DNA of 63,201 bases from positions 1-63,201 of the forward strand of contig JAIQGL010000035.1 of NCBI GenBank assembly GCA_020072585.1, read 5' to 3'. The notes beneath the pieces were generated by a model, which was not told where the DNA came from, searched no databases, and worked only from the letters and a program-made list of their open reading frames with translations. Each line of letters starts with the position of its first letter. Positions within the stretch are counted from its first letter, which is position 1. The position numbers and the translations under genes are program-made. Of this stretch, positions 1 to 27,413 are shown in pieces. Source of the DNA: Terriglobia bacterium. Its GTDB lineage: Bacteria > Acidobacteriota > Terriglobia > Terriglobales > Acidobacteriaceae.

Positions 1-1
1 G

Positions 2-3000: not shown

Positions 3001-6000
3001 TTACGGTCCGACAGAAACGCATGCTGCCAGTGCATTTCATCTGGGCATGGAAAGCGATCGTTGGCCCATGTTGCCGCCGATCGGGCAGCCGATTGCGAAT
3101 GCGCAAATTTACATATTAGATAAGCACGACCAATTTGTTCCCGTGGGAGTAGTAGGAGAACTGTATATCGGGGGAGCGGGCGTCGCGCGAGGGTATTTGA
3201 ACCGTCCAGATTTGACGGAAAAACGCTTCCTGAAAAATCGGTTTGCCAAAGAAGAGGGATCGCGGATGTACCGGTCAGGAGACCTTGGGCGATGGCGGGC
3301 GGATGGGACGATCGAGTTTATTGGACGGAACGATTCCCAGGTGAAGATACGCGGCTACCGCGTGGAATTGGGTGAGATTGAGGCGATGCTGCAACAGCAG
3401 AGTGGGGTACGGGGCTGTGCAGTGGTAGCGAAGACAGGCGCAAATGGAAGTAAAAGGCTGGTGGCATATGTGGTTGGAGAACGGGATTGTGATGAGCTGC
3501 GGCGAGATCTGAAAGGAAAGCTTCCGGCGTATATGGTTCCAAGTGCCGTTGTGGCCTTGCCAGAGTTGCCGCTCTCGGGCAACGGGAAGGTAGACCGGGA
3601 GGCATTGGAAAAACGAGAGGACCTTGGTTCGGGAGCCGAGCACTACGAAGCTCCCGGCAATGCGGTAGAAGATCAACTGGCAGAGATTTGGGCTGAGGCG
3701 CTGGAAATCACGCGAGTTGGGAGACACGATAATTTCTTTGATCTGGGCGGACACTCATTGCTTGCGACATTAGTGGCGACGAGGATGGGAAACACGTTTG
3801 AAATACAGGTTCCCGTACGAGCATTGTTCGAATCGCCCACGATTGCCGAACTCGCAGAGGTGATAGAAGCCGGCTTGAAATTATCGGGAAGGAAATCAGG
3901 AAGCGGCAAGAAAGCAATACGAAAGCCGGTAGTTTCTGGTCCAAGACCTTCTCTTTTCCCGCTGTCATACCAGCAGGAGCAGCTCTGGGTACTGGACCGG
4001 TTCAATCCCGGCAATGCGTTCTACAACATTCCTATGACCTGGAGGCTCAAGGGCGACCTCAATGTTCCCCGGCTAGAGAAAAGTCTGCAGGAGGTGGTGC
4101 GGCGACATGAAATTCTGCGGACCTGCTTTGTGATGGAACACGAGGAACCAAGGCAGAAAGTTGCAGAGGCGACATTCGATGTGCGGTTGCCGGTAGTGGA
4201 TTTGCGGCAATTGGAGCCGGGCGAGCGAGAGGAGGAGGCGAAGAAGGTTGTAGCACAGGAGGCGGACAAGGCATTTGAGTTAAGTCAGGCGCCCTTGTTG
4301 AGGGGAGTGTTGGTGCGGACGCACGAAAGGGAGCACGTGTTGGGGCTGACGCTGCACCACATTATCTGTGATGACTGGTCGTTAGGGCTCTTGATGAAGG
4401 AGTTGGGGAAATTGTATGAGGCGTATGGAAGAGAAGAAGACTCGCCGCTGCCGGAATTGGAAATGCAATATGGGGAGTATGCGCTGGAGCAGAGGGAAGG
4501 GCTGAGTGAAGGAAAGTTCCAACAGCAGATGGAGTACTGGAAAAGACAGCTGGAAGGGATGCCTCAGGTGCTGGAATTGCCGGCGGACCACGTGCGGCCG
4601 GCGAGAGAGAGTTTCCGCGGAACGTCAGAGCAGCGAATTCTGCGTAGCGGCTTGCTGGAACGCTTGAACGCCCTGGGGAGAGCGGAGAAGGCGAGCTTGC
4701 TCATGACGATGCTGGCGGCCTTTCAGGTGCTGCTGATGAGGTACAGCGGTCAGGAGGATTTTGGAGTTGGCACCGTGGTAGCCAATCGTAAGCGGATAGA
4801 GACAAAAGAGCTGATTGGTTTTTTCCTGAACACGCTGGTGATACGCGCGAATTTGCGCGGCGAGCCAACCTTTCGCGAAATGCTGCGCAGGGTGCGGGAA
4901 GCGGTGCTGGGCGGGTATGAGCATCAGGATCTGGCATTCGAGAAGCTGGTGGAAGAATTGGCGCCGGTACGTGACGTTAGCCGCAGCCCTGTCTTTCAAG
5001 TGGCATTTACGTTGCGAAGGTCCATTGAGGGCAAGTCGGAATTAGGCGGGTTGGAGATGGTCCCATTCGAACTGGATCCTGGTACATCTAAGTTTGATCT
5101 CATTATGGGTATAGAAGAAGCCGGGCAGAACGCAGTGATTGGTCTTAACTACAGCAAAGACTTATTTGAGGCGGAGACCATTCGGCACATGCTGGAACAC
5201 TATGAGCATCTTCTGGAAGGAATTGTTGCAGACGCTGACCAGCCAGTTTGGGCGTTGCCCATGATGAGCGAGCTGGACGAGAAGGTCCTGTCCGGCTGGG
5301 ATTGCGCGAAGCCGGCTTCTCCTGAAGAAAAGAACATCATTGAGGTTCTGGAAGCCCAGGCACAGAGCCGGCCGGAAGAACCGGCTGTAATCTTTGGTGA
5401 AGCGCAACTCAGCTATGGGGAACTGAACAGCAGGGCGAGCCAGGTTGGGAGTTATCTCTCCTCCATGGGAGTGGGGCCGGAGTCACTCGTGGGTATTTTC
5501 ATGCCGCCTTCGAAGGAGATGGTGGCGGCCATGCTGGGAGTGCTGAAAGCCGGTGGCGCCTGGCTGCCTCTGGATGTCCTGAACCCGAAAGATCGTTTGC
5601 GGTCCATCATTGACAGTTCAGGAGTTGCCGTCTTGCTGACCGTGGAGAACCTGCGCAAGCGTCTCCCGCAGACCAATGCACGTGTGGTTTGTTTGGATTC
5701 GGAATGGGAGATGATCGGCCAGCACAGCGCGACGAACCCTGATGTTCAGGACAATCCCCGCAACCTCGCTTGTGTCATCTATACCGGCGCCCAGGAGGGA
5801 CACGCCAAAGGCCTGATGCTTGAGCACAGCGCGCTGATGAATCTTATATCTGCATGCGACGCCGCTCATACGGCGAATCAAAATGGGCACGCCAAGATTC
5901 AAGACAATAGCTATTTGGAAATTTGGCGGCGTTTGACATCCAGTTCTTTCCTGGTCTCCACCTCTGCCATACTCACACCCGTGGCAGAAGAAAACAGATT

Positions 6001-6880
6001 CAGGCCACGCGGCAATGCCGCGATCTACCTTCTTGATCCGCACCTCCAGCATGTTGCCATTGGAGTTCCGGGGGAACTGTGGATTGGCGGAGCTGCCGCG
6101 GGCCGCGGTTATCTGGGGCAGCCTTCGCTGACGGCGGAGAAGTTTCTTCCCGATCCGTTTACATCGGAAATGGGTGGACAGATGCGCGGGACCGGAGAGC
6201 GCGCCCGATATAGAGAGGATGGAACTATCGAGCTTATGGGCAGAATTGATGATCGGGTGGAGATCGAAGGCTTCCCGGTGGAACTGGGAGAAATTGAGGC
6301 TGCTCTGGTGAATTGTGAGAGCGTGCAGGAGGCGGCGGTAGTTGTGCGTCCTAATGGCGAACTGGTGGCTTATATTGTAGTCCGCGACGGAAAGAGATTG
6401 GGGCAAAACGAAGTGCGCAGCTACCTTGACGACAAGCTGCCTCTGTATATGATTCCGGGCACTTTTATTACCGTGCAGGAGTTGCCCAAAAATGCCAGAA
6501 ATGAGGTGGATCGGGCCGCGTTGTCTGTTCTGGGCCAGGAGCAATTGACCAGCGAATTTGTGCTCCCGCGAACCGAATTGGAAAAAACCATTGCGGCCGC
6601 ATGGCAGGCCGCTCTCGGCATCGATCAGGTAGGGGTATATGACAACTTTTTTGATCTTGGCGGGCACTCGCTCCGCATGATCCAAATCCATCAGAAGCTG
6701 AGGGCGGAACTTTCGATTGATCTTGAACTTCTCCACCTCTTTCAATTTCCCACCATTGATTCTCTTGTCCGCTTTCTTCAAGCTGGTTACAACTTCGACG
6801 GCAGGTCGCGTGAAACGCGGGACCGCGCGGGACGGCAAAAAAGCGCCATCCAAAAATTAAAAAGGACGCACACACCATGA
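2..6880 (+). CDS. Non-ribosomal peptide synthetase, 5'-truncated (A-T / C-A-T / C-A°-T)
   Basis: Multimodular peptide synthetase cut by the left edge; no true start is in the window. Counting residues from the GTG at base 8: end of an A domain (1-120, YRTGD at 6-10, NGKLDR at 110-115), carrier domain (135-212, LGGHS, Ser170), condensation domain (243-685, HHILCDD at 376-382), complete A domain (700-1200; A3 YTSGSTGQPKG about 854, A5 HYGPTE about 998), carrier (Ser1250), condensation (1316-1755, HHIICDD at 1450-1456), a damaged A domain (1775-2175) and a last carrier (Ser2221). The complete A domain reads by eye as pocket code D-V-Q-F-N-A-H-A-A, one change from proline-type codes (DVQFIAH..); a proline-like substrate is inferred. 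The basic C-terminal tail may dock to the PKS encoded next, whose start overlaps this stop by 4 bp (ATGA). NRPS identity is certain; substrates are not. Confidence 0.97.
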   Translation, partial: GEVGGRLYRTGDLVRWRRDGTIEFVGRNDFQVKVRGFRIELGEIEAILQQQSGVQGCAVVAKTGVNGSKRLVAYVVGERDREELRRDLKGKLPAYMIPNAIVGLQVLPLTSNGKLDRQALEKLEDLDSDDSGEYYEAPCTAVEEQLAEIWAAVLEVVRVGRHGNFFDLGGHSLLAISMASRCRNVFGLDVPVRAIFESPTIAELAEVIELGLKSQGRKPGDDKDTIPTQRSSILRSSALTPSVFPLSYQQEQLWFLDQFQPGSDFYNVPLAWKLKGDLDVPTLERSLREVVRRHEQLRTCFVMDQQEGLRQKVVGDSLDVRLPVMDSRHLAAGEREEQAKKIIEDEARKAFDLTQAPLWRGVLVRTEEREHVLGFTLHHILCDDWSLRILMSEWGKLYEAYGKGEESPLPELEMQYGEYALEQRERLSGGKFQQQLDYWKGQLKGMPQVLDLPADHVRPARESFRGGTEQRILSSALFEGLNAVGKGERASLFMTLLAACQVLLMRYTGQEDFGVGTVVSNRKRAEMEPIFGFFLNTLVIRANLGGEPTFRDVLQRVRAAALAGYEHQDVSFEKLVEELAPDRDASRTPIFQVLFTTLGEPDKLEFGELELSGFEIDTGMSKFDLVVSVQETTQGAAVTINYSMDLFEAETIQRMLGHYEQLLKAVVENAAQRVWNLPLLTEAERTQLERWNQTSRDFPRDKTFAALFEEHAASTPNAVAVEYEGQELKYGDLNRQANRLAHHLRALGVKPDTLVAVCVDRSLEMIVGLLAVMKAGGAYVPMDPAYPQDRLQFMLEDSRPAVLLTQSHLRGLFTEIREDLKFIDLRGAEAWGNQPDSNPEHATIGLTAQDLVYVIYTSGSTGQPKGVAMPVGAAMNMIAWQMNESAWAGQQRTLQFAPFGFDVSFQEIFSTLCAGGTLLLIDEEKRRNATDMARYVMEKGVQRLFLPVVGLQMFAEGMAEMGKPFDCALQEINVAGEQLRINDKIRALFKRLKHCRLNNHYGPTETHAASAFHLGMESDRWPMLPPIGQPIANAQIYILDKHDQFVPVGVVGELYIGGAGVARGYLNRPDLTEKRFLKNRFAKEEGSRMYRSGDLGRWRADGTIEFIGRNDSQVKIRGYRVELGEIEAMLQQQSGVRGCAVVAKTGANGSKRLVAYVVGERDCDELRRDLKGKLPAYMVPSAVVALPELPLSGNGKVDREALEKREDLGSGAEHYEAPGNAVEDQLAEIWAEALEITRVGRHDNFFDLGGHSLLATLVATRMGNTFEIQVPVRALFESPTIAELAEVIEAGLKLSGRKSGSGKKAIRKPVVSGPRPSLFPLSYQQEQLWVLDRFNPGNAFYNIPMTWRLKGDLNVPRLEKSLQEVVRRHEILRTCFVMEHEEPRQKVAEATFDVRLPVVDLRQLEPGEREEEAKKVVAQEADKAFELSQAPLLRGVLVRTHEREHVLGLTLHHIICDDWSLGLLMKELGKLYEAYGREEDSPLPELEMQYGEYALEQREGLSEGKFQQQMEYWKRQLEGMPQVLELPADHVRPARESFRGTSEQRILRSGLLERLNALGRAEKASLLMTMLAAFQVLLMRYSGQEDFGVGTVVANRKRIETKELIGFFLNTLVIRANLRGEPTFREMLRRVREAVLGGYEHQDLAFEKLVEELAPVRDVSRSPVFQVAFTLRRSIEGKSELGGLEMVPFELDPGTSKFDLIMGIEEAGQNAVIGLNYSKDLFEAETIRHMLEHYEHLLEGIVADADQPVWALPMMSELDEKVLSGWDCAKPASPEEKNIIEVLEAQAQSRPEEPAVIFGEAQLSYGELNSRASQVGSYLSSMGVGPESLVGIFMPPSKEMVAAMLGVLKAGGAWLPLDVLNPKDRLRSIIDSSGVAVLLTVENLRKRLPQTNARVVCLDSEWEMIGQHSATNPDVQDNPRNLACVIYTGAQEGHAKGLMLEHSALMNLISACDAAHTANQNGHAKIQDNSYLEIWRRLTSSSFLVSTSAILTPVAEENRFRPRGNAAIYLLDPHLQHVAIGVPGELWIGGAAAGRGYLGQPSLTAEKFLPDPFTSEMGGQMRGTGERARYREDGTIELMGRIDDRVEIEGFPVELGEIEAALVNCESVQEAAVVVRPNGELVAYIVVRDGKRLGQNEVRSYLDDKLPLYMIPGTFITVQELPKNARNEVDRAALSVLGQEQLTSEFVLPRTELEKTIAAAWQAALGIDQVGVYDNFFDLGGHSLRMIQIHQKLRAELSIDLELLHLFQFPTIDSLVRFLQAGYNFDGRSRETRDRAGRQKSAIQKLKRTHTP
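5777..6074 (+). other. Collapsed core of the third adenylation domain
   Basis: Within the first NRPS, the A3 loop reads IYTGAQEGHAKG instead of YTSGSTGxPKG. The distance from A3 to the A6 motif (GELWIGG) is about 98 residues, against about 195 in the intact domain of the same protein. A4 and A5 (YGPTE), which form most of the amino-acid pocket, are absent. A7 is RGTGERARYRED and A10 is degenerate (NARNEVDR). The reading frame stays open and the flanking C and carrier domains are intact, so this is an in-frame internal deletion. Loss of amino-acid activation is inferred. Confidence 0.85.
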
Positions 6881-9800
6881 CCAGAGACGTACTGGACGGA
6901 ATAGCAATCATCGGCATGGCGGGGCGATTCCCCCAGGCCCCAAATCTCCAGCGATTCTGGGAAAACCTCTGCCAGGGAATCGAATCAACATCTTTTTTCT
7001 CTGAAGAAGAACTGGAACAAGCCGGAATCAGCCCTGAGCTGCTTCGCCATCCCAACTATGTGAAGGCCAGGGGAGTGCTGGAAGACGCTGATTTGTTCGA
7101 TGCCGGTTTTTTTGGTTACTCGCCGCGCGAAGCAGAATTGACGGACCCGCAGATACGGTTGTTTCTGGAGTGTGCGTGGGAAGCCCTGGAATCCGCGGGA
7201 TGGAACCCGGACAAATTTTCCGGATTGATCGGTGTCTATGCCGGAATGTCATTCAGCTCTTATATATGGCAACTTGCGGGAGAAGATACGGATGCAGACT
7301 CGGTGGGCGCTTTTCGCTTCCTTATGGGTGGCGCCGAGAAGGACCATCTGGCAACGACACTCTCGTACCGCCTGAACCTGCGCGGCCCGAGCTTGAACAT
7401 CCAGACTGCATGCTCCACCTCATTGGTTGCAGTGCATGCGGCTGCCCGCGCGGTGATGACCTATGAGTGCGATATGGCCATCGCAGGCGGATCTACCGTC
7501 AATGTGCCCCAGCGTAGCGGCTACATGTATGAGCCCGGAGGTATTGCTTCAGCCGATGGTCACTGCCGCAGCTTCGATGCCGAGGCCAGCGGCTCGATAA
7601 GCGGTGATGGGGTTGGAGTTGTTTTATTGAAACGTCTGGAGGACGCGATTGCCGCCGGCGATACGGTGTATGCAGTCATCAAGGGTTCGGCGATCAACAA
7701 CGATGGCCGCCGGAAAGTTGGTTTCACTGCACCCGCAGTGGAAGGGCAGGCAGAAGTCATTGCCCTGGCGCTGGCCGCAGCGGAAGTAGAATGTGAGAGC
7801 ATTGGCTATATCGAGGCCCACGGCAGCGCCACACCTATGGGAGACCCGATTGAGATTGAGGCCCTGAATCAAGTCTATGGCCAGGCCGGCCTCAAGCCCT
7901 CAAGCATTGCCGTGGGATCGGTTAAGAGTAACCTTGGCCATCTGAACGCGGCTGCTGGAGTGGCTGGGTTGATAAAGACCATTTTGGCCCTCCGGCATGG
8001 CTCGATTCCCGCCTCATTGAACTTCCGGCAGCCTAACCCCGCGATTCCTTTCGGGCGCGGCCCTTTCCGTGTCAATCACACGCTCTCGCGATGGCCGGAG
8101 AGCAATAAGCCGAGGCGGGCAGGCGTGAGTTCATTCGGGATCGGCGGCACCAATGCTCATGTGATTCTGGAGGAAGCGCCGGAGATGAAGCCATCAGAAC
8201 CCGCCAAGCCCTGGCAACTCATCACCATCTCCGCGAGGAGCCGCGAGGCGCTGGAGCGAGCTACGGACCAATTAGCCACGCATCTTCTCGAACACCCGGA
8301 ACAGAACTTTGCCGATGTCGCATTCACTTTGCAGGAAGGCAGAAAGGCTTTTGAGCACAGGCGCATGGCTGTCTGTCGCGATGCCTCGGCCGCGGCTGGC
8401 CTTTTGCAGTCCCGGACCCCTTCTCAGGTATTTACCGCTGTCTCAGCGTCGCGGCGGCGTCCTGTTGCTTTCCTGTTACCCGGTTTAGGGGACCAATACC
8501 TGGATATGGGTCGCGGCTTATATGAATCGGAGCCTGAGTTCGCGCGGCACGTGGACCATTGCTCGGAGCTTCTCCAGCCGCTTTTGGGAGTTGACCTGCG
8601 CAAGACCATGTATCCCGATCCAAGAGTGCGGCAGCAGAATGAAGTCAGAACGGAAGAACGTATGAACTTCCGCAACCTGGTGCAGCGTGCGCGCGAAGAC
8701 AATTCCCCAACGTTGCAGGAAATTCACCGCACACTATGGGCGCAGCCCGTGCTGTTTGTCATCGAGTATGCGCTGGCCAAGCTCTGGATGAGCTGGGGGA
8801 TTGTTCCTGAAAGCATGATGGGCTACAGCATTGGGGAATACGTGGCTGCATGCCTGGCCAGCGTTATTTCCCTGGAAGACAGCTTGCATATGCTGGCGGC
8901 TCGGGCGCAGAAAATTGAAGCGCTTGCTCCCGGTGCAATGCTGGCCATCGCAGCGTCAGAAGCAGAAGTCCGTCCGCTGCTCACCCCGGAAATCTCCATG
9001 GCGGGCATCAATGGCAAATCACTCTGCGTAGTCGCGGGTACGCCGGAGGGGGTTGATGCATTGCAACAGCGGCTGGTTCGCGAAGGCGAACTGGTGTGCA
9101 GGCGGCTTCTTGCAACTCACGCCTTCCATTCACCGTTGATGGCGCCGGTGGCCGAGGAATTGACCAGACTTGCGCGGTCCATCCGTTTTAGTCCGCCCAG
9201 AATTCCTTACATCTCCAATGTGACCGGCAAACCGATTACGGATGCTGAAGCTACAGATGCCACATACTGGGCGCGGCATCTGACGCAGCCGGTCCAGTTT
9301 GCGGCAGGCTTGCAGCACATGTGCTCGCCCACCGCACCGGTATTCCTGGAGGTTGGCCCGGGTCAAATGTTAACGTCTCTTGCCGAACAGTATCTTGCCG
9401 GCAGGGGCTTGGCTGACCGGGTTGCGCTGGCCTCTCTGCCGCATGCGTCAGACTCCCAGCCGGATCGCGCTTTTATTCTCAGCACTCTTGGAAATTTATG
9501 GCTCGCCGGCATTGAACCGGACTGGGCCGGTGTCCACCGAGGTGAACGCAGAAGCCGCGTCCTGCTTCCCACTTATCCTTTCGAGCGGCAACGCTATTGG
9601 CTTACGCCACGCAGGCAGCCGCAGCAGAAGCGGGAAGCCGAGCCTGTAAAGGCCGCTACCGCGGCTGCTTCACTCGCGCAGGAGATGGTTTCGTCAAAGC
9701 AAGGCATCAAGCCCGAAGACAACGGTGTGGGAAATTCACGGTCACATCTGGGCGCCGAGTTTGTTGCGCCTGGCAATTCCACCGAGCAAAAGATTGCGGA

Positions 9801-10074
9801 AATATGGGAGGAATTGTTGGGAATCCATCCCATTGGAATTCATGACGAGTTTCTCCGGTTAGGCGGCAATTCGCTGCTGGCCATACGCGTAGCAGCTGAG
9901 CTGCGTGAGGCATTCCAAATCGAGTTTCCTCTTGCGGCGCTCTTGAGATCGTCGACCATTTCTGAGATCGCCCTGTTTGTTGAAGATGCGCTGCTGACCA
10001 TGATCGAAAACATGGATGAGTCCGAACTGTCCGGAATGGAGACAAACGATGTCCGCCCATCCGCCACTGATTGA
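6877..10074 (+). CDS. Type I polyketide synthase module KS-AT-ACP
   Basis: One-module PKS of 1065 residues that would extend the peptidyl chain by a two-carbon unit. The ketosynthase (about 5-430) has Cys179 (TACSTS), His315 (EAHGSAT) and His355 (KSNLGHL). The acyltransferase (about 528-830) has nucleophile Ser651 in GYSIGEY (Tyr where GHSxG is usual) and HAFH at 748-751, the motif of malonyl-type ATs. The ACP (about 965-1040) has LGGNS with Ser999. There is no KR, DH or ER, so the beta-keto group would stay. The next four genes supply an unusual ACP-bound extender, so this AT, or the free ACP directly, probably uses hydroxymalonyl-ACP; that is inference. Translation is likely coupled to the upstream NRPS through the ATGA overlap. 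Confidence 0.95.
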   Translation: MTRDVLDGIAIIGMAGRFPQAPNLQRFWENLCQGIESTSFFSEEELEQAGISPELLRHPNYVKARGVLEDADLFDAGFFGYSPREAELTDPQIRLFLECAWEALESAGWNPDKFSGLIGVYAGMSFSSYIWQLAGEDTDADSVGAFRFLMGGAEKDHLATTLSYRLNLRGPSLNIQTACSTSLVAVHAAARAVMTYECDMAIAGGSTVNVPQRSGYMYEPGGIASADGHCRSFDAEASGSISGDGVGVVLLKRLEDAIAAGDTVYAVIKGSAINNDGRRKVGFTAPAVEGQAEVIALALAAAEVECESIGYIEAHGSATPMGDPIEIEALNQVYGQAGLKPSSIAVGSVKSNLGHLNAAAGVAGLIKTILALRHGSIPASLNFRQPNPAIPFGRGPFRVNHTLSRWPESNKPRRAGVSSFGIGGTNAHVILEEAPEMKPSEPAKPWQLITISARSREALERATDQLATHLLEHPEQNFADVAFTLQEGRKAFEHRRMAVCRDASAAAGLLQSRTPSQVFTAVSASRRRPVAFLLPGLGDQYLDMGRGLYESEPEFARHVDHCSELLQPLLGVDLRKTMYPDPRVRQQNEVRTEERMNFRNLVQRAREDNSPTLQEIHRTLWAQPVLFVIEYALAKLWMSWGIVPESMMGYSIGEYVAACLASVISLEDSLHMLAARAQKIEALAPGAMLAIAASEAEVRPLLTPEISMAGINGKSLCVVAGTPEGVDALQQRLVREGELVCRRLLATHAFHSPLMAPVAEELTRLARSIRFSPPRIPYISNVTGKPITDAEATDATYWARHLTQPVQFAAGLQHMCSPTAPVFLEVGPGQMLTSLAEQYLAGRGLADRVALASLPHASDSQPDRAFILSTLGNLWLAGIEPDWAGVHRGERRSRVLLPTYPFERQRYWLTPRRQPQQKREAEPVKAATAAASLAQEMVSSKQGIKPEDNGVGNSRSHLGAEFVAPGNSTEQKIAEIWEELLGIHPIGIHDEFLRLGGNSLLAIRVAAELREAFQIEFPLAALLRSSTISEIALFVEDALLTMIENMDESELSGMETNDVRPSATD

Positions 10075-10960
10075 CAATAAGCATTCTGGCGAAACCCCGG
10101 ACCTTCCCCGTCTTGAAACTATAGGTGTGATTGGGGCGGGAGTCATGGGTGTGGGCTTGGCCCATGCGCTGGCGCAGTCCGGGTTGCGCACCCTGTTGAT
10201 CGATATCTCTGATTCCATTCTGGAGTCCGCCCTCGGGCAGATCAGAAACAACATTCGCTTCCAGCGTTTATTTCACAAGAATCCCGGCAGTGGCCCTGAA
10301 GAAATCCTGGGGCGCATCAAGGTTTCTGCCGACTATGACATTCTGCGGAATGCTGACTTCGTAATAGAAAACGTGACGGAAAAACTGGCGGTCAAGACGG
10401 ATGTGTACCGCCGGCTGGATCAGATTTGTCCTCCGCAATGCATCTTTGCCGCAAATACCTCTGCTATTCCCATAACCCGGATCGGCGCTATGACCCGCCG
10501 CCCCGCGCGCGTGCTGGGGATGCATTTCATGAACCCGGTGCCGCTGAAGACTGCGGTTGAGGTGATTCGCGGCTATCACACCAGCGACGACACCATTGCC
10601 ACGGCAGCCAGGCTGCTCAATCTTATGGGCAAGAAGCCCATCGTCGTGGGTGATTCACCCGGATTTGTTTCCAACCGGGTACTGATGCTGACCATCAACG
10701 AAGCGATTTTTCTGGTGCAGGAAAGGGTCGCACCGCCCGAGGTGGTGGACGATATCTTCAAGAATTGCTTCGAGCACAAGATGGGCCCGCTGGAAACCGC
10801 CGACCTCATCGGACTGGACACCATTCTGTTTTCTATTGAGGTACTGTATGACGAGTTTAAGGACAGCAAATTTCGCCCCTGTTCACTGCTCCGGCAGATG
10901 GTGGATGCCGGTCTGCACGGTCGCAAGAGCGGCCGTGGGTTTTACAGCTATGAAGATTGA
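10049..10960 (+). CDS. 3-hydroxyacyl-CoA dehydrogenase-like enzyme (FkbK/ZmaG type), glyceryl-ACP oxidation
   Basis: 303-residue NAD-dependent dehydrogenase of the 3-hydroxybutyryl-CoA dehydrogenase family. The N-terminal Rossmann motif GAGVMG, the active-site region ANTSAIPIT, GMHFMNPVP and the C-terminal domain start PGFVSNRV are all visible. In FK520 and zwittermicin pathways the homologue oxidises the C3 hydroxyl of glyceryl-ACP. The start at 10049 is preferred over an in-frame codon at 10016: it follows GGAATGGAGAC, reduces the overlap with the PKS end to 26 bp and gives the usual family length. It lies in the same transcriptional run as the ACP, acyl-CoA dehydrogenase and FkbH-like genes, which favours extender-unit synthesis over fatty-acid oxidation. 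Confidence 0.88.
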   Translation: MSAHPPLIDNKHSGETPDLPRLETIGVIGAGVMGVGLAHALAQSGLRTLLIDISDSILESALGQIRNNIRFQRLFHKNPGSGPEEILGRIKVSADYDILRNADFVIENVTEKLAVKTDVYRRLDQICPPQCIFAANTSAIPITRIGAMTRRPARVLGMHFMNPVPLKTAVEVIRGYHTSDDTIATAARLLNLMGKKPIVVGDSPGFVSNRVLMLTINEAIFLVQERVAPPEVVDDIFKNCFEHKMGPLETADLIGLDTILFSIEVLYDEFKDSKFRPCSLLRQMVDAGLHGRKSGRGFYSYED

Positions 10961-10984
10961 CCAATCCCGCAAAGAAGGAAGTTC

Positions 10985-11245
10985 ATGGAGCAAGCGAAAG
11001 AAAAATTGAGGGCTTTCCTGGCGCGACATATAGCTGGCCGCACGATTGCCGATGAAGACCAGATTTTTGCGTCTGGCTTTGTCAACTCCATGTTCGCCAT
11101 GCAACTTGTATTGTTCCTGGAAAAGAACTTCAAGATTGCCATTGGCAATGAGGACCTGGAACTGAAGAATTTTCAGAGTATTAACGCCATGGCAGAGCTG
11201 ATTGAGAGAAAGACCTCACCCTCACAGAACGGTTCGAATTCATGA
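10985..11245 (+). CDS. Free-standing acyl carrier protein (FkbJ type)
   Basis: 86-residue discrete carrier protein. The phosphopantetheine attachment serine is in SGFVNSMFAM, followed by a typical helix II/III pattern (LVLFLEKNFKIAI). It begins 24 bp after the dehydrogenase, behind AAGAAGGAAG, and ends 10 bp before the acyl-CoA dehydrogenase. By family precedent (FkbJ, ZmaD, OzmC-like) it carries the glyceryl unit while it is oxidised to hydroxymalonyl. Function is inferred from position and length. Confidence 0.88.
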   Translation: MEQAKEKLRAFLARHIAGRTIADEDQIFASGFVNSMFAMQLVLFLEKNFKIAIGNEDLELKNFQSINAMAELIERKTSPSQNGSNS

Positions 11246-11255
11246 TTGGTCCTTT

Positions 11256-12407
11256 ATGGAACTGACTTTTGAACAGCAACGGCTACGGGCCGCGTTCCGC
11301 GAATTTGCAGATGCCCATATCGTGCCCCATGCGAATACATGGGACCGGGAAGAACGCATGCCGGCCGAGATGGTGCGGCAGTTGGCCAGTAAGGGTTATC
11401 TCGGTGCGGTGCTACCGGCTGATTGTGGCGGTGCCGGCTTCAATATGGTTGGATTTGGGCTGCTGAATGAGGAGTTAGGGCGAGGTTGTTCATCCATCCG
11501 TAGTTTGTTGACTGTGCATAGCATGGCTGCTTTGACAATATGGCGCTGGGGAGCGGAGGCGCAAAAAGCCCAGTGGCTCGAAAAACTGGGGCAAGGGCAG
11601 GCAATAGCCGCATTTGCCCTCACCGAACCCGAAGCCGGAAGTGACGCGCGAGAAATCAGAACCGAGGCCGTTGTCAGCGGGGATGATTTCCTTCTTAGTG
11701 GACACAAGAAATGGATCACGTTTGCGCAGATTGCAGATTTGTTTCTGGTATTTGCCAGAAGCCAGCGGGGACCGTGTGCCTTCCTGCTGGAGCGAAACAC
11801 GCCCGGCCTGGTGATTTCGCCAGTGCATGGCATGTTGGGCACGCGCGCTTCCATGATGGCTGAACTTCACCTCGAGCAATGCCGTGTTCCCAAACGGAAC
11901 CTGGTTGGTGCTCCCGGGTTCGGCCTTTCTCATATCGCCTCCTCAGCGCTGGATTGTGGTCGCTACAGTGTGGCCTGGGGCTGTGTAGGCATTGCCCAGG
12001 CATGTCTGGAAACGTGCCTGCGATACACAGGACAGCGAAAACAGTTCGGCACTCTCTTGCGGGACCACCAGTTGGTCCAACGCATGATCGCGCACATGGT
12101 GGTTGGGGTGAAAGCAGCCCGCTTGCTGTGCTACAACGCCGGACAACTCAAGGATGCAGGTGATCCAACCTCAATGATTGAGATATCGATTGCCAAATAC
12201 TTCGCCTGCAAGACCGCCGCGGAGATTGCCCGAGATGCAGTTCAGATACACGGAGCAAACGGATGCAGCAGTGAATATCCGGTAGAACGCTTTTATCGAG
12301 ACGCCAAGATTATGGAAATCATTGAAGGAAGCAATGAGATCCAGGAGATCACGATTGCGCAGAGCGCCTGCCAGGAAGTTGCGGACAGCGCGGCCATAGC
12401 CAGGTGA
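11256..12407 (+). CDS. Acyl-CoA dehydrogenase-like flavoenzyme (FkbI/ZmaE type)
   Basis: 383-residue FAD-dependent acyl-CoA dehydrogenase family protein. Visible family segments include FALTEPEAGSD, the HKKWIT strand and, near the C-terminus, AVQIHGANGCSSEYPVERFYRDAK. The ATG at 11256 was chosen because it lies 10 bp after the ACP stop and gives the normal N-terminus (MELTFEQQ); an upstream in-frame codon at 11202 would overlap the ACP. In methoxymalonyl- and hydroxymalonyl-ACP pathways the homologue performs the last oxidation, aldehyde to carboxylate, on the ACP-bound unit. The stop overlaps the next gene's GTG by 4 bp. Confidence 0.9.
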   Translation: MELTFEQQRLRAAFREFADAHIVPHANTWDREERMPAEMVRQLASKGYLGAVLPADCGGAGFNMVGFGLLNEELGRGCSSIRSLLTVHSMAALTIWRWGAEAQKAQWLEKLGQGQAIAAFALTEPEAGSDAREIRTEAVVSGDDFLLSGHKKWITFAQIADLFLVFARSQRGPCAFLLERNTPGLVISPVHGMLGTRASMMAELHLEQCRVPKRNLVGAPGFGLSHIASSALDCGRYSVAWGCVGIAQACLETCLRYTGQRKQFGTLLRDHQLVQRMIAHMVVGVKAARLLCYNAGQLKDAGDPTSMIEISIAKYFACKTAAEIARDAVQIHGANGCSSEYPVERFYRDAKIMEIIEGSNEIQEITIAQSACQEVADSAAIAR

Positions 12408-13498
12408 GACATTTTGTGACTGAACTCGGAATAAAAACCAAATCTTCGGGCGATGCAGTGGCCCCCGCTAAGCGGCGTAAAGTTAAGTGCGTCGTGTGGG
12501 ACCTGGATAACACCCTGTGGAGCGGGACTCTGCTTGAAGGCGACGAGGTGCGTCTGCGCGACGGCGTCCGGGAAATCATCCACGCGCTCGATGCTCGCGG
12601 CATTCTGCATTCCATCGCCAGCCGCAATCATGCAGAATCGGCGCTCACCCGGCTCCGTGAACTGGATTTGGAAGAGTATTTCCTGTATCCGCAGATTAAC
12701 TGGGGATCCAAAGCGGCTTCCATACGGACGATCGCGGAAAGCCTCAACATCGCCCTGGATAGCATTTGCTTTATTGACGATCAGGCTTTTGAACGTGCGG
12801 AAGTCCAGGCTGCACTGCCGCAGGTCTTTTGCATGGACCATATCCAATTGCCCAATCTGCTGCAGATGCCGGAACTCAACCCTGAGACAATCACGGCAGA
12901 GTCCCGCATGAGGCGCCAGTTGTATCTGGGCGAAATGCGACGCAAGCAGACAGAGGAGGCATTCACCGGACCGCAGGAAGAATTTCTCGCCTCCCTCGGC
13001 ATGGTGTTTACTATCTCCCCTGCGCGCGCGGAAGACCTGGCCCGGGCGGAAGAGCTTACCAACCGTACCAATCAACTCAATACCACGGGACGCACCTTTT
13101 CCCGGGAAGAGTTGGAGGAGTTGCGCTGCTCAGATCGCCATCTCCTGCTGATGTCTGAGTTGACTGACAAGTTCGGAAATTACGGAAAAATTGGCCTTGC
13201 CCTGGTGGAATGCGGTCCTGAGGTATGGACGATCAAATTGCTGCTCATGTCCTGCCGGGTGATGAACCGGGGTGTGGGCACGATCATGTTGAACCACATC
13301 CTCAGGAAGGCACGGGAATCCGGAGTCCGGCTGCTCTCTGAATTTGTATCGAACGACCGGAACCGCATGATGTACGTCACTTACAAATTCGCGGGATTTA
13401 CTGAAATCGAGAACAGAGGAGGGACCCAGATTCTGGAGCATGATCTGGCATCGATTCCTCCAGTGGCAGATTACATTGCAGTAAAAGTTGAAAACTAA
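12404..13498 (+). CDS. FkbH-like glyceryl transferase/phosphatase
   Basis: 364-residue bifunctional HAD-superfamily protein. The HAD nucleophile motif is WDLDNTLW (Asp33, Asp35), a later acidic motif is FIDDQAFE (about 123-130), and the C-terminal half is the FkbH transferase domain with MSCRVMNRGVG; Cys284 matches the cysteine that carries glycerate in OzmB. The known reaction takes 1,3-bisphosphoglycerate, removes phosphate and loads D-glycerate onto a dedicated ACP. It starts at a GTG that overlaps the acyl-CoA dehydrogenase stop (GTGA). This gene is the strongest marker that the cassette makes a 2-oxygenated malonyl-ACP. No FkbG-type O-methyltransferase is in the window. Confidence 0.92.
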   Translation: MRHFVTELGIKTKSSGDAVAPAKRRKVKCVVWDLDNTLWSGTLLEGDEVRLRDGVREIIHALDARGILHSIASRNHAESALTRLRELDLEEYFLYPQINWGSKAASIRTIAESLNIALDSICFIDDQAFERAEVQAALPQVFCMDHIQLPNLLQMPELNPETITAESRMRRQLYLGEMRRKQTEEAFTGPQEEFLASLGMVFTISPARAEDLARAEELTNRTNQLNTTGRTFSREELEELRCSDRHLLLMSELTDKFGNYGKIGLALVECGPEVWTIKLLLMSCRVMNRGVGTIMLNHILRKARESGVRLLSEFVSNDRNRMMYVTYKFAGFTEIENRGGTQILEHDLASIPPVADYIAVKVEN

Positions 13499-13637: not shown

Positions 13638-16600
13638 ATGAGCAACGAAGTTCACGGCAAAGAGCCAGGCAGCCATCAGGAGCGGATTTCCCGGCTTACT
13701 CCGGCCCAGCGCGAAATGCTTGAGAAGCGGCTGCGGGGTGAAGGACCGCGAAGCGAGCCCAAATCCGTCATCAAGCGCCGTCCTACTCTGGACTATCCCA
13801 TCACTTACGAGCAGGAACACTTGTGGCTGCTGCACCAGATGGACCCGACTACCCATTACTTCAACCATAGCCATGGCCACCGGCTGAAAGGCGACTTAAA
13901 TGTTGCTGCGCTGGAGCGGACGATCAATGAAATGGTGCGCCGCCACGAGAATTTCCGCACATCGATGCCGGAAATTGATGGCAAGCCGAGGGCGGTCGTT
14001 GCTCCGCAGCTTCAGATTCCGCTGGAACTGGTAGAAGTTCCGGAATTCCCCGTGGAGGACCGGTACGACCGTCTACAGGCCCTGGTTACGGCCCACACTT
14101 GCCGGCCTTTTGACATAGTGAATGGCCCTTTGATTCGAGCGACGCTTTTCCGCGTCACGGAACAGGACCACACAATATTGATTACGCTGCATCACCTCAT
14201 CACGGATTTTGTCTCTTATGATTTGGTTGATAATGAGTTCTTCGCTCTCTACGATGCTTTTTCCCGCGGATTGCCATCCCCCCTTCCCGAACTGACGTTT
14301 CAATACGGTGACTTTGCCTGGTGGCTGGACCAATGGATGAAGTCTGACGAAGCCGCCCGGCAGGCTGATTATTGGACCCGTAAACTCGCGGACCTGCCGC
14401 GCCTGGACCTGGTAACAGACATGCCTCGCCCGCATATCCGGACTTTTAGCGCCGTGCGTCTTACCTGGAACTTGCCGGAGATGTTATGGCTGGAGTTCAA
14501 GCAGTTGGCGGCTGCCGAGAATGTCACACGGTTTACGGGTTTTCTCGTGGTTTTTGCCATGCTCCTGCGGGAGTATAGCGGGAAAGATGATATTCCCATT
14601 GCCACCCCGGTGAGCAGCCGCAAGCACCGGGAAATGCAGCCTGTGATCGGCTATTTTCTCAACACCATCGTTTATCGTCTGGACTTATCGGGCAATCCTA
14701 CCTTTCGTGAGCTGTTGCAGCGCACGCGCCTGACCACGATAGAAGCGATGGCAAACTCTGATTTGCCCTTCGAGTTCCTCTTGAACAAACTCCAGGCAGA
14801 GCGTGATCCCAGCCGCGCGCCCCTGGTCGATGCTTCGTATGCTTTCGGCAACGACCACAAACCGGCGCAGCCTCCGACTGGTTTGGCAATGGAAGAATTC
14901 AATGCTTTTTACCAGTCAGGCTGGCTGGACGTGAATCTCGGAGTGAACGACAACACCGATCACGCTGTTGTCGTTTATGACTACCTTGTCGATCTCTTCC
15001 TGCATTCCACAGGAGAGCGGATGATGCAGCACTTCCAACGTTTGTTCGAGCAAGTAACAGCGGATCCGGGACGCCGGCTGAGTGACTTCCTGTTGCTCAG
15101 TGATCGTGAGCAGCAACAGATTCTTACGGATTGGAATGACACTGCCGCACCCTATCCCTCCACGCAGACAATTCCACGCTGCTTTGCCGTGCAGGTTGCA
15201 AAGGCCGGAAGCACGATTGCTGTTCGAGCGCCGGAGACGGAGCTGACCTACGGTGAGCTGAATAAACGAGCCAATCGTCTTGCGCACAGGCTCATAAAGA
15301 CCGGTGTGAAACCTGAAACCGCGGTGGCCATTCTGATGGAACGCTCCGTGGACATGGTAGTTGCCACGCTTGCGGTGTTGAAAGCCGGCGGCGCATATCT
15401 GCCGCTGCACTCCGCGTATCCGCTTGAGCGCATGCGTCTGATCATGGAAGAGGCAGGCGCGTCTGTGCTTCTCCTTGACCGTACCACTGCAAGACGCGGG
15501 CTTAGTCACCGCGAAGTCATCGTGGTTGATAACCACCCTTCTTTGGAGGCGCAAGATGATAACGAAAGCGATCCCGATATCACGGTCGATCCTGACCAAC
15601 TTGCATATGTGATCTACACCTCGGGATCTACTGGTACGCCGAAAGGCGTTGCCGTCACACATCGCAATGTTCTTAGCCTGGCATTTGACCGTAGCTGGCG
15701 AGAGGGAAGCCTGGAAAGAGTGTTGTTTCATTCTTCCCACGCCTTTGACGCTTCAACATTTGAGATATGGGTCCCATTGCTGCGGGGTAAACAGGTCATC
15801 ATCGCCCCGCCCGGCGAGTTGGATAGTGCTGCTTACCGGCGTTTGTTCCAGGAAGAAAAGGTCACTTCTACCTTCCTTACCGCCACGCTTTTCAATGCAC
15901 TGGCTCAGGAGTCCCCTGGATGCTTTTCCGGTGTCCCTGAAATATGGGCGGGTGGCGATGTTGTTCCCGCCGTCGCCGTCCAGCGGCTGCACGAACATTG
16001 CCCTGAGACCCGGGTGTGTAATGTCTATGGTCCAACGGAAACGACCACGTTTGCCACCTATTACGCAGTCCCCAACCGAGAGAAGTTGACCGGCAATGTG
16101 CCCATCGGCAGGGCCATGGATAACCACCAGGTCTATGTTCTGGACTCTTTTTTCAAGCCGGTCCCAGTGGGTATTCCCGGTCAGCTATTTATTTCCGGCG
16201 ATGGAGTAGCACGCGGATATCTGCGACGTCCTGATCTTACAGCAGAGCGTTTTATTCCGAATCCCTTCGGCAACTTCGGCGGACGCATGTATTGCACCGG
16301 AGATCGAGTGCGTTGGAGAGAAGACGGGCAAATAGAGTTCCTGGGCCGAACTGACCAGCAGGTCAAGCTTCGGGGGTATCGCATCGAGTTGACGGAAATT
16401 GAGGTGGCTCTGTTGGGCTGCTCCGGCGTAGGTCAGGCAGCCGTGATTATGCATTCGGCCAGCAGGGGGGAGAAGCGACTGGTTGCCTATGTAGTGCCTG
16501 CTCCCGGCCAAAGCCTGAATTCACTTGAGTTGCGCGAGTCCCTGGCCCACATGTTGCCTAGCTACATGGTGCCCGCCTTCATCACGATCCTATCTTCTCT

Positions 16601-19600
16601 GCCTTTGAACTCAAACGGCAAGCTTGACCGTAAGCGATTGCCGGCGCCTGAAGTAACCAGAAGCGGTTCAGGGCGCAGACCTCGCACCCACGCGGAAGAA
16701 GTTCTCTGTTCCCTCATGATGCGGGTGCTGAGTGTTTCCCACATCACACCGGACGATAACTTCTTCGCGCTTGGCGGCGACAGCATTCTGGCGTTTCAAC
16801 TGGTCAGTCGTGCGCGGAAGTCGGGATTGATCCTTAGCTTGCGCGATGTCTTTGAACAACCGACGATTGAGGCCCTTGCAGGTATTTCTCGCGCGCAAGA
16901 TATGGTGGCTGCTGTACCCGACGTCGGAATAGGCGCAATGCCGCCCACTCCGATCATATGTTGGTTCCTGGAGTCGGGCGGGACTCTGAATCGCTTCAGC
17001 CAGTCTATTGTGCTGCAAGTCCCAGCCAATCTGGAGCGCCAGCATCTCGTGAACGCTTTGCAGACGATACTCGATCATCATGATGCGCTGCGCCTGCGTT
17101 TCACCGGCGGAGAGAGGCGCAGGGAGGAGTGGAAACTGGAGGTCCAGGCGCAAGGCACGGTGCGTGCCGAATCGTGCCTGCATGCAATAGACATTGCAAG
17201 GCTTGACGATGATGCATGCAGTCAGACGATAGCGGAAGAAGCACAAGCTGCCGCGAGACGTCTCTCTGCTGAGAGCGGACTCATGCTGCAGGCCGTGTGG
17301 TTTGATGCGGGTCGCAGTTCGTCCGGACGTTTGCTGCTGAGCATCCATCATTTGGCAGTGGATGGAGTGTCTTGGCGAATCCTGGTGCCAGACTTTGTGG
17401 CTGCCTATGCGGCAATTGCCGCTGGACATCCGCCATCTCTTGAACCATGTCCCGTCTCTTTCCGTGGCTGGGCTGAACGATTAAGCCGTGAGGCGCTGAA
17501 TCCAGAGCGAGTGAAGGAACTCTCCTTCTGGACTGACATGTTGAAGGACGCACAGGAACTTGTTCCCAGCCAGCAACTCGTTCACAGCCGCGATACTGTG
17601 GGCAGCGCTCACCAGATCGCTCTTACGTTGCCGCCAAATGTTACTGCTCCTTTGCTGAACCGGGTCGCGGGGGCATTTCATGCGCGCATCAATGACGTGC
17701 TGCTCACCGGGCTCGTTCTTAGCATTCTGAAATGGCAGAAAGATTCTGGCGATGGCACGTCCGTCCTGATTGATATGGAAGGCCATGGGCGGGAAAGCAT
17801 TTTTGACGGCATTGACCTTTCCCGCACGGTCGGGTTTTTCACCACCATCTTTCCTGTGCATCTTGATCCCGGCAGCCTGGACCTTGAGGAAGCCTGGATG
17901 GGAGGCGAAGCGCTGGGAAGGGCGCTCAAGTCAATCAAGGAGCAGCTTCGCTCGATTCCTGACAATGGGATTGGTTACGGATTGCTGCGTTATTTGAATC
18001 CTGAAACTGCGCCGGTCTTGTCCCGCCTGCCCAAATCCCAAATAGATTTTAACTATCTGGGACGTTTCCCGGTGGCGGAAGCCGCCGACTGGACGCCCTC
18101 CGAATCTTTCAGCGGAGGCCTGGACCCTGAGATGGCCTTCCATCATCCATTGCAAGTTGATTCCATGGTATTGGAGCGCGCTGCCGGTCCGGAGCTGACG
18201 GCCATCTGGACATGGATGCCGGGAATATTTTCGGAAAAGGATGTTCGTTTGCTCGCAGATGGATGGTTCCACATGCTGGAGGCGCTTGTCCAGCATAGCG
18301 AACAGCCCGAAGCAGGAGGTCTCTCTCCATCTGACGTGCCCCTGGTCGCTCTCTCACAATCTGAAATTGACCGGCTTGAAAGCGAACATGGAGAGATCGA
18401 AGACATATTGCCGCTCACACCCCTGCAGGAGGGAATGCTTTTCTTTGCTTTCTATGATGCCGCTGGACCGGATATTTACAACGTCCAGATCATGCTTAAG
18501 CTGGAGGGGCTGCTCGACGAAAAAGCGCTTCACGATGCAGCCAAAGCTTTGCTGGGCCGCCACAAGAATTTGTGCGTAGCTTTCGAATACAAAGATTTGG
18601 ACCGGCCGGTGCAAATCATACCAAAAGATTTTTCTCTGCCGTGGAACACCCTGGACCTCTCGGCACTTGAGCCGCAGCAGCGCGACCGGAGTTGGGCTGA
18701 GCTGGTGCAACGCGATCGCCTGGCCCGTTTTAGTCCGAATGTCTCGCCACTGTTTCGGTTTCTTCTGGTCCGTTTTGCGCCGGAAGAATCCCGCCTGCTG
18801 ATTACCACCCATCACATTCTGGTAGACGGATGGTCCGTGCCATTGATGATTCCCGAGTTGCAGACACTCTATGAGCATCATGGCAGCGCTGCTGCTTTGC
18901 CCCGAGTCACGGCATACCGAGACTATCTGGCGTGGCTTGCCAGCAGGGACCGCAGCGCAGCTGAAGCTGCCTGGAGGGAAGCGCTGGCTGGACTTGAAGA
19001 AGGCACGCGGATGAGCCCGCTGGCCTCCCTGGGCGAACCCAAAATACCTGAGCGAATTATTGTTGATCTTGACGAAGAACTCACGCGGCAACTCACTGAG
19101 CAGGCACGCGCTCGCAATTTGACCGTCAATACTATCGTCCAGGGCGCCTGGGCTGTTCTGCTGTCACGCCACACTGGCCGGCAGGATGTGGTGTTCGGCA
19201 GCACCGTTAACGGACGCTCTCCAGAGATCGCGGGCGTTGAAAGCATGATTGGACTTCTGATCAATACCGTGCCCACACGCGTAACCCTGCGCTCCGCCGA
19301 TTCATTCAGCGATCTTGTCAGCCGGCTGAATCAGGAGCAATCCCGCCTCCTTGCTCATCAATACCTTGGATTGGTGGAAATTCAGCGCCTGACCAGGCTG
19401 CACGAATTGTTTGACACTCTGGTGGTCTTTGAGAACTTCCCCAGAGGAACGGAAGATAAAAGCCGAACAGAAGATAAAGACCGAACGGAAGTGGATGCGC
19501 AACCCTCCGGCGGTCTGCGGTTCACAGTGATGGACCTCAACGATGCCGCACATTATCCCTTGACCGTTGTAGTGGCCCCCGGCCGGCGACTAAGCGTGTA

Positions 19601-21632: not shown

Positions 21633-21750
21633 ACTCGCGTTTGCGCCGAGGGATTTCGGTAGTGAGTCAAGTTTCCATGAAATGGACCCACCACCTGCTT
21701 GATTTGATTTAAATCGATTTGAATTTGCTGATCCACAATCCGGAGGTTGA

Positions 21751-24209: not shown

Positions 24210-25301
24210 ATGGACGCAACCATCTTGATCATCGGCAGCGGATCTTTGGCGCGGGCCATCTCTTATTCTTTGGCTCTATTGCTATCTCGGCCTCATCGCG
24301 TGATCGTTTGTGCCCGGTCCAGAGATCAATTGAATGAGATCATCTATGTCTCACGCGCCAAGGCTGCAAGCGCGCAATCGCCGGTGAAATTCGACTCCGT
24401 CGAATTTGATGCCGAATCAGGTGATGTCGGCAGTCTGCTTTCATCATTACAACCTGACATACTAGTGAATTGTGCTTCCTATTACTCTCCCTGGGAGTGG
24501 ATTCACCAGCCTTCATCATGGACGCATCTGCTCCGCAGCGCGGGATTCGGTTTCACGTTGCCATTGCAGGCAGCTTTCGCAATCAAATTTGCTAAAGCCG
24601 TGGCAGCTCATTCACGGCCGGTGCTTTTTATCAATGGCTGCTATCCTGATGCAGTCAATCCACTCTTGCGCGCCCTGGGCCTTCCTGTATTTTGCGGCGT
24701 TGGCAATATTGCTCTTGTGGCAGCAAGCTTGCGGTCTTCTCTTGGTCTTATGCCCGGGCAGCGCTTGCAAGTCATGGCACATCACCTGCATTTATACACA
24801 CCAAAACCTGGAGTGGATGAAGCTCAGGCCTGGGTTGATGGGAAGCATTGCGAGAACGTAACCGGCTTGCTGGTAAACCAGCGGACAAGCAGTGGCCTGG
24901 AGGTCAATAAAGTAATTGGATGTACAGCCGCTGTTTTGCTGCGCAACATCATTGACGGACGCGATGTGGAAACCCACGTACCCGGCCCATTTGGGCTTCC
25001 CGGAGGATATCCGGTGCACGTAGTGGGTGCACGCATGGAACTGAATTTACCGGCTAATCTTTCAGAATGTGAGGCAATTGCATGGAATGAAAGAATTGCA
25101 GTCGCGGATGGAGTGAAAATACTTTCCAATGGAAACGTGGAATTCGGGGAAGAGACGAAGCTTGCGTTCAGGCAATATCTACCCCGAATATCTGACGGCT
25201 TTCGCGCCAGCGAGATAGATAAAGTCACACAATCAATGCTGGAACTCCGGGAGAGGCTGACAAGGGAGAAGGTCCAACTACACAAGGCTTACAATACATG
25301 A
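24210..25301 (+). CDS. Rossmann-fold NAD(P)-binding protein, substrate unknown
   Basis: 363 residues. The N-terminus has a dinucleotide-binding motif (LIIGSGSLARAIS, about 6-18) followed by a long alpha/beta region (DILVNCASYYSPW) that recalls saccharopine-dehydrogenase-like or opine-type proteins. I do not recognise a specific family. No signal peptide or membrane segment is seen. It starts 23 bp after the permease stop, so co-transcription with the NRPS cluster is plausible and a tailoring or precursor-forming redox step is a reasonable guess. It ends convergently with the minus-strand beta-hydroxylase gene. Confidence 0.75.
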   Translation: MDATILIIGSGSLARAISYSLALLLSRPHRVIVCARSRDQLNEIIYVSRAKAASAQSPVKFDSVEFDAESGDVGSLLSSLQPDILVNCASYYSPWEWIHQPSSWTHLLRSAGFGFTLPLQAAFAIKFAKAVAAHSRPVLFINGCYPDAVNPLLRALGLPVFCGVGNIALVAASLRSSLGLMPGQRLQVMAHHLHLYTPKPGVDEAQAWVDGKHCENVTGLLVNQRTSSGLEVNKVIGCTAAVLLRNIIDGRDVETHVPGPFGLPGGYPVHVVGARMELNLPANLSECEAIAWNERIAVADGVKILSNGNVEFGEETKLAFRQYLPRISDGFRASEIDKVTQSMLELRERLTREKVQLHKAYNT

Positions 25302-27032: not shown

Positions 27033-27413
27033 CGATGGGTCTTCCTTTTCCGGATTGACGGGCAATTCGAACTGGCCCTTCCGATTATGACGGCCATAAT
27101 ATTATTCGCTCGATTGTCCAACTTAGCAATCATCGCAACTCCATAAATACTTGGAACAGAGCGAGGCTCGGGCCATGTTTTCGTACCAACGAGCGCAGCG
27201 GCGCACAGCAAAATCAGAGAACTTCCCGAAATGGTGTGGGTGAAGAAGTTTATAAATTACCGGGTCAGCCTTGCCCAAGTAACTACTTTATAACCCACGG
27301 CTCTCCCAGTTGCGGTTTGATTTGCGTGATCGGCAAAGGGACTCGCTTATATTCGGGGGAGGGATAGCTTGTGTCCTATTAATGACCAGACCAAGGTGCT
27401 GACCGGATCGCGA
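27033..27413. promoter_or_regulatory. Intergenic upstream region of the beta-hydroxylase gene
   Basis: 381 bp without a credible gene, between the start of the beta-hydroxylase and the end of the giant repeat protein, both on the minus strand. It must hold the promoter of the beta-hydroxylase gene. I see a short AT-rich stretch near 27096-27112 (ATAATATTATT) that could be part of it, and the ribosome binding site GGAAG near 27042. No convincing -35/-10 pair, terminator hairpin or operator stands out. Confidence 0.4.

Follow-up and report, generated by a model that had tools for sequence, protein, structure and literature searches.

The fkbG–fkbK genes of FK520 biosynthesis form a methoxymalonyl cassette. 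A related cassette for butyrolactol A was read as a supply of hydroxymalonyl on an acyl carrier protein (ACP), with labeling in support; the only hydroxymalonyl-ACP users listed in that 2017 paper belong to Bacillus, Xenorhabdus, Paenibacillus and Streptomyces (PMC5355916). Here we analyze a locus from a Terriglobia bacterium (Acidobacteriota; assembly GCA_020072585.1) on a contig of 63,201 bases (C15; JAIQGL010000035.1), the whole of which is called the window, from a 6.9-Mb genome in 74 contigs. At 10049-13498 lie four intact genes in K-J-I-H order, homologous to FkbK, FkbJ (an ACP), FkbI and FkbH, beside a polyketide synthase (PKS) gene. Our results suggest that this cassette makes hydroxymalonyl-ACP, that the adjoining ketoreductase (KR)-less PKS module uses it, and that the resulting peptide may keep an internal hydroxy-ketone.

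The cassette and its acyltransferase

A sequence-only reading of the window had recognized four consecutive fkbK, fkbJ, fkbI and fkbH homologues, and this assignment was borne out, all four being intact and carrying the expected Pfam or NCBIfam families. FkbH matched the NCBIfam model TIGR01686 ('FkbH') at 275 bits (cut-off 147). The residues singled out by that reading, Asp33 and Asp35, which we take to be the HAD pair, and Cys284, presumably the glyceryl acceptor, are present and invariant across an alignment of eight FkbH proteins that includes the window's. The PP-binding match of FkbJ was weak (PF00550, 21.6 bits against a cut-off of 20.8), and the FkbI structure 1r2j was among the structure matches of the window FkbI, below the top match. 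FkbK, 62–67% identical to FkbK of three cyanobacterial cassettes, has a second in-frame ATG at 10016 that overlaps the PKS stop. Identities to three cyanobacterial plasmid loci reached 57–62% for FkbH and 59–60% for FkbI, far above chance, and the window FkbH was the sole FkbH match in its own genome (E 0.001). With two same-genus genomes (G751 and G737) at hand, we estimated the ratio of nonsynonymous to synonymous substitution (Ka/Ks) between the window and G751, which was 0.076 for FkbJ, 0.098 for FkbI and 0.130 for FkbH; in the PKS it was 0.068 for the ketosynthase (KS), 0.180 for the acyltransferase (AT) and 0.104 for the ACP. Hydroxymalonyl-ACP supply by the cassette is a well-supported prediction from these genes.

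The earlier reading had also described the neighboring PKS module as lacking a KR, which Pfam corroborated by giving KS, AT and ACP alone; the interval of ~130 residues that separates AT from ACP is too short for a KR. In published work on ZmaA-AT (PMC4207774), ATs for ACP-linked extenders are marked by GYSxG together with an RXR region that is hydrophobic (of the form MXM or MXW), and ATs for CoA-linked extenders by GHSxG with R or K first in RXR; ZmaA-AT, which takes hydroxymalonyl-ACP, has GYSFG and MCM. The window AT carries GYSIG in place of GHSxG, matching the published mark of ACP-linked extenders, and its RXR region reads VCR, with a non-basic first residue and R retained in third position.

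We surveyed 88 loci, comprising eight plasmid loci and the best 80 of at least 561 relatives from a contig scan with eight aligned FkbH proteins. In 36 of 40 cassette loci, the AT that lies closest upstream of FkbK, at a distance of up to 5 kb, was of GYS type, and downstream ATs were GYS in 9 of 44. An AT tree was built from 95 sequences. Its starting set was the 97 ATs whose motif could be read; we removed two of fewer than 220 residues and a duplicate of the window AT, and added one G737 AT. The window AT fell within a cassette-linked, all-GYS clade (support 100/100) that holds 45 of the 49 GYS rows, a placement in line with the sequence-only reading; the four GYS rows outside it are three ZmaA-like Paenibacillus ATs and one from Brasilonema. 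The window genome encodes eight other ATs, one of which (L179) was dropped from the motif table; the seven with readable motifs include no GYS and all lie outside this clade. The tree program flagged a long-branch join at a deeper node. ACP-linked ATs are separated in this tree from CoA-linked ones, but not hydroxymalonyl from methoxymalonyl ATs, and GYS ATs were also found beside methyltransferase-bearing cassettes. At the level of sequence, both the cassette and the assignment of the window AT to the ACP-linked type are solid findings, and the GYS mark together with the AT clade suggests a simple sequence test for such extenders.

Methyltransferases and the orthologous cluster

The left end of the window is open and begins inside an adenylation (A) domain. 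No identical overlap with another contig was found in a genome search with its first 1000 bases or by blastn of 250-base contig ends; among 59 A-domain matches in the genome, the one on contig C12 was alone in being an N-terminal fragment cut off by the end of its contig. An orthologous cluster lies on contig C290 of G751, with an FkbH 93% identical to the window's and 90.7% nucleotide identity over window positions 1-10175. Because C12 matches C290 (88%) to the left of the window-matching part, with ~8.8 kb between them, it is very likely that a single cluster spans C12 and C15 and that its intervening piece is unassembled. Contig C71, considered as the link, was rejected, as it had no match to 75 kb of C290. 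Three contig ends of the window genome (L062, L067 and L198, on C70, C12 and C49) have in common an exact stretch of 139 bases, which probably breaks the assembly of other nonribosomal peptide synthetase (NRPS) clusters, and an IS110-type transposase (61579-62613) adjoins the right end of the window.

Pfam assigned families to the main frames of C290 out to 26 kb as follows: NRPS genes A and B, a second FkbK, a remnant of a condensation (C) domain, a heme-oxygenase-like protein, a zinc alcohol dehydrogenase and an MFS transporter. It gave no family for two other frames, and small frames were scanned in part. The fkbK beside the G751 PKS is a 55-residue in-frame remnant, and the intact copy, 73% identical to the window FkbK, lies ~26 kb upstream. 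Around this intact copy (L216:2084-4633) we observed A- and C-domain remnants, perhaps a decayed relative of the cluster. Carried on a single contig, the G751 cluster offers a defined expression target.

No methyltransferase family was found in the 35 window open reading frames scanned with Pfam (minor and overlapping frames left out). As an FkbG-type query we used a 232-residue PF01596 protein encoded right after fkbH in Streptomyces NBC_01450 (L184), classed as FkbG-type by place and family. It gave five matches in the three genomes, on C64 (39%) and C63 (33%) of the window genome, C111 and C63 of G751 and C45 of G737, and none on C12 or C15 of the window genome or on C290 of G751; PF08242 and PF05050 had no match on C12 or C15. 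The sole methyltransferase domain seen in the G751 cluster sits between the A domain and peptidyl carrier protein (PCP) of an additional NRPS gene, D, at a position typical of N-methyltransferases. The missing FkbG-type methyltransferase, which the sequence-only reading had likened to zwittermicin, was thus confirmed for the window frames, the orthologous flank, C12, C15 and C290, and following the cluster leftward through the G751 flank and C12 brought no FkbG homologue to light within it.

Proposed pathway and its alternatives

Gene content, catalytic residues, AT type and selection are features of the DNA itself; each chemical step proposed below is modeled on characterized homologues. FkbH would transfer the glyceryl group of 1,3-bisphosphoglycerate to Cys284, with removal of phosphate, and load FkbJ, after which FkbK and FkbI would oxidize C3 in two steps to give hydroxymalonyl on FkbJ. 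Because no O-methyltransferase is encoded in the cluster, the unit would stay hydroxymalonyl. The AT of the KS-AT-ACP module would take it from FkbJ, the KS would condense it with the peptide that the NRPS upstream delivers and, because the module has no KR, the next NRPS would receive an α-hydroxy-β-keto acyl chain that becomes the internal hydroxy-ketone of the peptide. Hydroxymalonyl is likely the unit used, judging from cassette and AT. As for the α-hydroxy-β-keto element predicted by the earlier reading, its premises stood (a KR-less module and an AT of ACP-linked type), and the element in the final product is plausible, the best prediction for a pathway in which a dehydrogenase might still act on the ketone and O-methyltransferase relatives occur elsewhere in the genome. 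Least certain are the oxidation state of the finished product and which amino acid precedes the hydroxymalonyl unit, the latter because the A domain of the module preceding the PKS (A3) is decayed.

G751 has the identical gap in A3, with a Ka/Ks of 0.25 for the remainder of the domain, and its partner PCP3 is strongly kept (0.070). Among 15 loci with an A match within 3.5 kb before the KS, several of them cut by locus ends, the window alone showed such an internal gap. PCP3 may be loaded in trans, or its module passed over; a literature search on inactive A domains loaded in trans gave no match. Combining a KR-less hydroxymalonyl module with a trans-loaded C-(dead A)-PCP module, we tentatively suggest, as a possibility somewhat short of even, that selection in this acidobacterial genus maintains a peptide with an internal, reductone-like α-hydroxy-β-ketoamide. 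We know of no characterized hydroxymalonyl pathway that makes this unit. If formed, the α-hydroxy-β-ketoamide would represent a warhead or metal-binding unit, and a KR-less hydroxymalonyl module within a peptide would yield a reactive hydroxy-ketone.

Several observations weigh against the proposed pathway. Ka/Ks rises to 0.447 for PCP2 and to 1.222 for the 61-codon AT-ACP linker, and A3, which would select the amino acid donated to the PKS, is decayed. The tree rows from other genomes were selected from cassette loci, the window AT sits on a long branch (0.98), and adjacency does not fix AT type, the nearest upstream AT being GHS in 4 of 40 cassette loci. Other such points bear on particular alternatives and are given with them.

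A Rossmann-type dehydrogenase-like protein encoded after the MacB-type permease, or the zinc alcohol dehydrogenase encoded upstream on C12, might reduce the β-ketone in trans to leave a 2,3-dihydroxy unit, an outcome we consider unlikely. Both reductase genes accompany the cluster in G751, the dehydrogenase is kept next to MacB in G737 as well, and its model (mean pLDDT 66.5, built on five sequences) weakly resembles lactate/malate dehydrogenases, with TM scores of about 0.5 (0.43–0.60 among the 50 matches listed). However, the one Pfam match, to saccharopine dehydrogenase, stayed below threshold, NCBIfam gave no match, and a sequence search for a solved relative found none (best E 0.016).

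Equally improbable, in our estimate, is decay of the cluster in the window strain, with no product formed. G751 carries an NRPS gene D (A-MT-PCP-C-A-PCP, where MT is a methyltransferase domain; L208, C290:40473-46871) between gene C and MacB; it is absent from the window at 21632-21751, where C15 goes directly from gene C to MacB, and had no match in the NRPS stretches examined from the window genome. Neither NRPS genes A, B and D of G751 nor the window's gene C showed a thioesterase, and the thioesterase at the far end of C12 lies in the tail of another NRPS gene. Without gene D and a thioesterase in NRPS genes A–D, the window strain may make an altered product or none; A3 is dead, and the fkbK beside the PKS, a remnant in G751, is broken on C180 of G737. 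Opposing decay, Ka/Ks is low over the PKS domains, the cassette and PCP3, G751 retains its intact upstream fkbK, and A3 is gapped in both species yet constrained.

There is a slim chance that an unlinked FkbG-family O-methyltransferase methylates hydroxymalonyl-ACP, so that the module uses methoxymalonyl-ACP. The FkbG-type relatives on C64, recognized by sequence match, and C63, a PF01596 protein by Pfam, count in its favor, as do the GYS ATs known beside methyltransferase-bearing cassettes. Yet neither contig carries a Condensation or AT match, and the C64 and C63 stretches have their G751 counterparts (73–79% nucleotide identity) outside C290; in bafilomycin, the O-methyltransferase gene adjoins fkbH (PMC3679948). 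It is very improbable that malonyl-CoA is the substrate of the AT, with the cassette supplying a different pathway: the AT keeps R at the third RXR position and its lid motif, HAFH, is also that of the malonyl-CoA AT ZmaK (PMC4207774), but the GYS motif, the AT clade, the position of the cassette directly behind the PKS and the single FkbH match in the genome all speak against it.

The features discussed are collected below. NRPS gene C is ~90% alike in nucleotides to its G751 orthologue, and its epimerization (E) domain was assigned from an HHLAVDGVSW motif. In its first A domain (15186-16223), the pocket code, read at positions that we take to be those of the reference, is DAFFIAVTFK, against DAFFWGGTFK in G751, a possible specificity switch. 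The CmlA-type hydroxylase gene had no match in 75 kb of C290; it was set aside as a cluster member and is probably a neighbor without a fixed place in the cluster. On C80 of G737 (L186, 2868-11000), a full FkbKJIH cassette lies beside a thioesterase, a stand-alone A domain and a CmlA-type hydroxylase that shares 76% identity with that of the window; neither a KS nor an AT was matched within the 40 kb of C80 read.

Table 1. Features of the window around the cassette, with positions in the 63,201-base contig
Feature	Position	Strand	Details
NRPS gene B	8-6880	+	A-domain end, PCP, C, A2, PCP, C, decayed A3, PCP; open at left contig edge
Decayed adenylation domain A3, module just before PKS	5327-6524	+	lacks its P-loop, the YGPTE-containing middle part and the A10 lysine
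Single PKS module, KS-AT-ACP	6877-10074	+	no KR, dehydratase (DH) or MT; AT motifs GYSIG (8821), VCR...HAFH (9094)
FkbK-like 3-hydroxyacyl dehydrogenase (BafAI role)	10049-10960	+	ATG start; 3HCDH N and C domains
FkbJ-like discrete ACP	10985-11245	+	Ser34 in NSM; PP-binding PF00550
FkbI-like acyl-ACP dehydrogenase (FAD)	11256-12407	+	ATG start; acyl-CoA dehydrogenase domains
FkbH-like phosphatase/glyceryl transferase	12404-13498	+	GTG start; Asp33, Asp35, Cys284
NRPS gene C	13638-21632	+	C, A, PCP, E-like, C, A, PCP; no thioesterase domain
MacB-type ABC permease	21751-24186	+	adjoins dehydrogenase also in G751 (93%) and G737 (91%)
Rossmann-type dehydrogenase-like protein, candidate trans reductase	24210-25301	+	Ka/Ks 0.24 against G751
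CmlA-type diiron β-hydroxylase	25389-27065	-	neighbor gene

Distribution and comparison with known systems

The cassette is common, and its combination with a KR-less, methyltransferase-less module is uncommon. All four genes were present in 71 of the 88 surveyed loci (tblastn with identity cut-offs), so the cassette itself cannot be called rare. Some FkbH was found in 46 of 396 genomes of a phylum sample, at 57% identity or above only in the window's own genome and G172; in a class sample of 399 genomes that level was reached only in the window's own and G737. G751 was absent from the matches of both samples; within the genus, 2 of 8 other genomes searched, G751 and G737, had an FkbH match. 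A survey screen by seeds and motif, in which the motif missed the methyltransferase of G751 gene D and a methyltransferase-like frame of locus L119, left 33 of 71 loci (40 of 71 with a stricter cut-off) without a methyltransferase, an upper bound on which we do not rely.

Many cyanobacterial PKS genes adjoining the cassette have a KR and an embedded methyltransferase, and 5 of the 7 surveyed Streptomyces/Streptantibioticus loci have an AT with FkbM. KR-less modules in L092, L154 and L166 were rejected as parallels for their GHS ATs. Desulfamplus L128, where KS and GYS AT share one frame, neither KR nor ACP was found before fkbK and the stretch is rich in stops, was likewise not counted. KR-less GYS modules with a cassette and no fused methyltransferase occur in Kamptonema sp. 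UHCC 0994 (L119) and on C180 of G737; the survey gave no full match of the window arrangement outside the genus. Open-text literature searches found no acidobacterial product of this kind, one hit that mentions methoxymalonyl being a review on marine actinomycetes; this is consistent with the earlier statement that no characterized one is known.

Kamptonema L119 resembles the window in its 1060-residue KS-AT-ACP gene with a GYSIG AT, followed in turn by FkbK, J, I and H genes and an NRPS gene, but it has a full-length upstream A domain and, just before the PKS, a 444-residue frame judged by eye to be methyltransferase-like. It was withdrawn as an exact parallel; we found no publication on the locus. 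On C180 of G737 a KR-less KS-AT-ACP gene with a GYSLG AT is followed ~6 kb downstream, on the same strand, by FkbJ, FkbI and FkbH; it differs in that the PKS is 46% identical to the window's, the AT motifs read ETR and HALH, fkbK is broken and the next NRPS has an N-methyltransferase-like domain.

The O-methyltransferase gene that marks cassettes of the FK520 and bafilomycin methoxymalonyl type was not found in the window cluster. Bafilomycin bafAI–V share the K-J-I-H order and functions, and BafAV (221 residues), an O-methyltransferase, is encoded after the FkbH gene (PMC3679948), where the window has an NRPS gene. Butyrolactol A of Streptomyces is closer in having a four-gene cassette with no nearby O-methyltransferase (PMC5355916); a cassette of this kind had already been published there. 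Butyrolactol A is a polyketide polyol, whereas the window has a single PKS module between NRPS genes. Zwittermicin A of Bacillus cereus (ZmaN, ZmaD, ZmaG, ZmaE and ZmaA-AT) shares the four functions, by homology as given for butyrolactol (PMC5355916), and the hybrid NRPS/PKS setting; ZmaA-AT likewise has GYSxG and a non-basic first RXR residue, but ZmaA has a KR (KR2) and the AT lid GAAH where the window has no KR and HAFH (PMC4207774 for ZmaA). Paenibacillus ATs with ZmaA-AT-like GYSFG/MCM motifs fall outside the clade of the window AT. Beside these systems, sequence evidence now places the cassette in a genus of Acidobacteriota and, by way of the survey, among cyanobacteria and further phyla.

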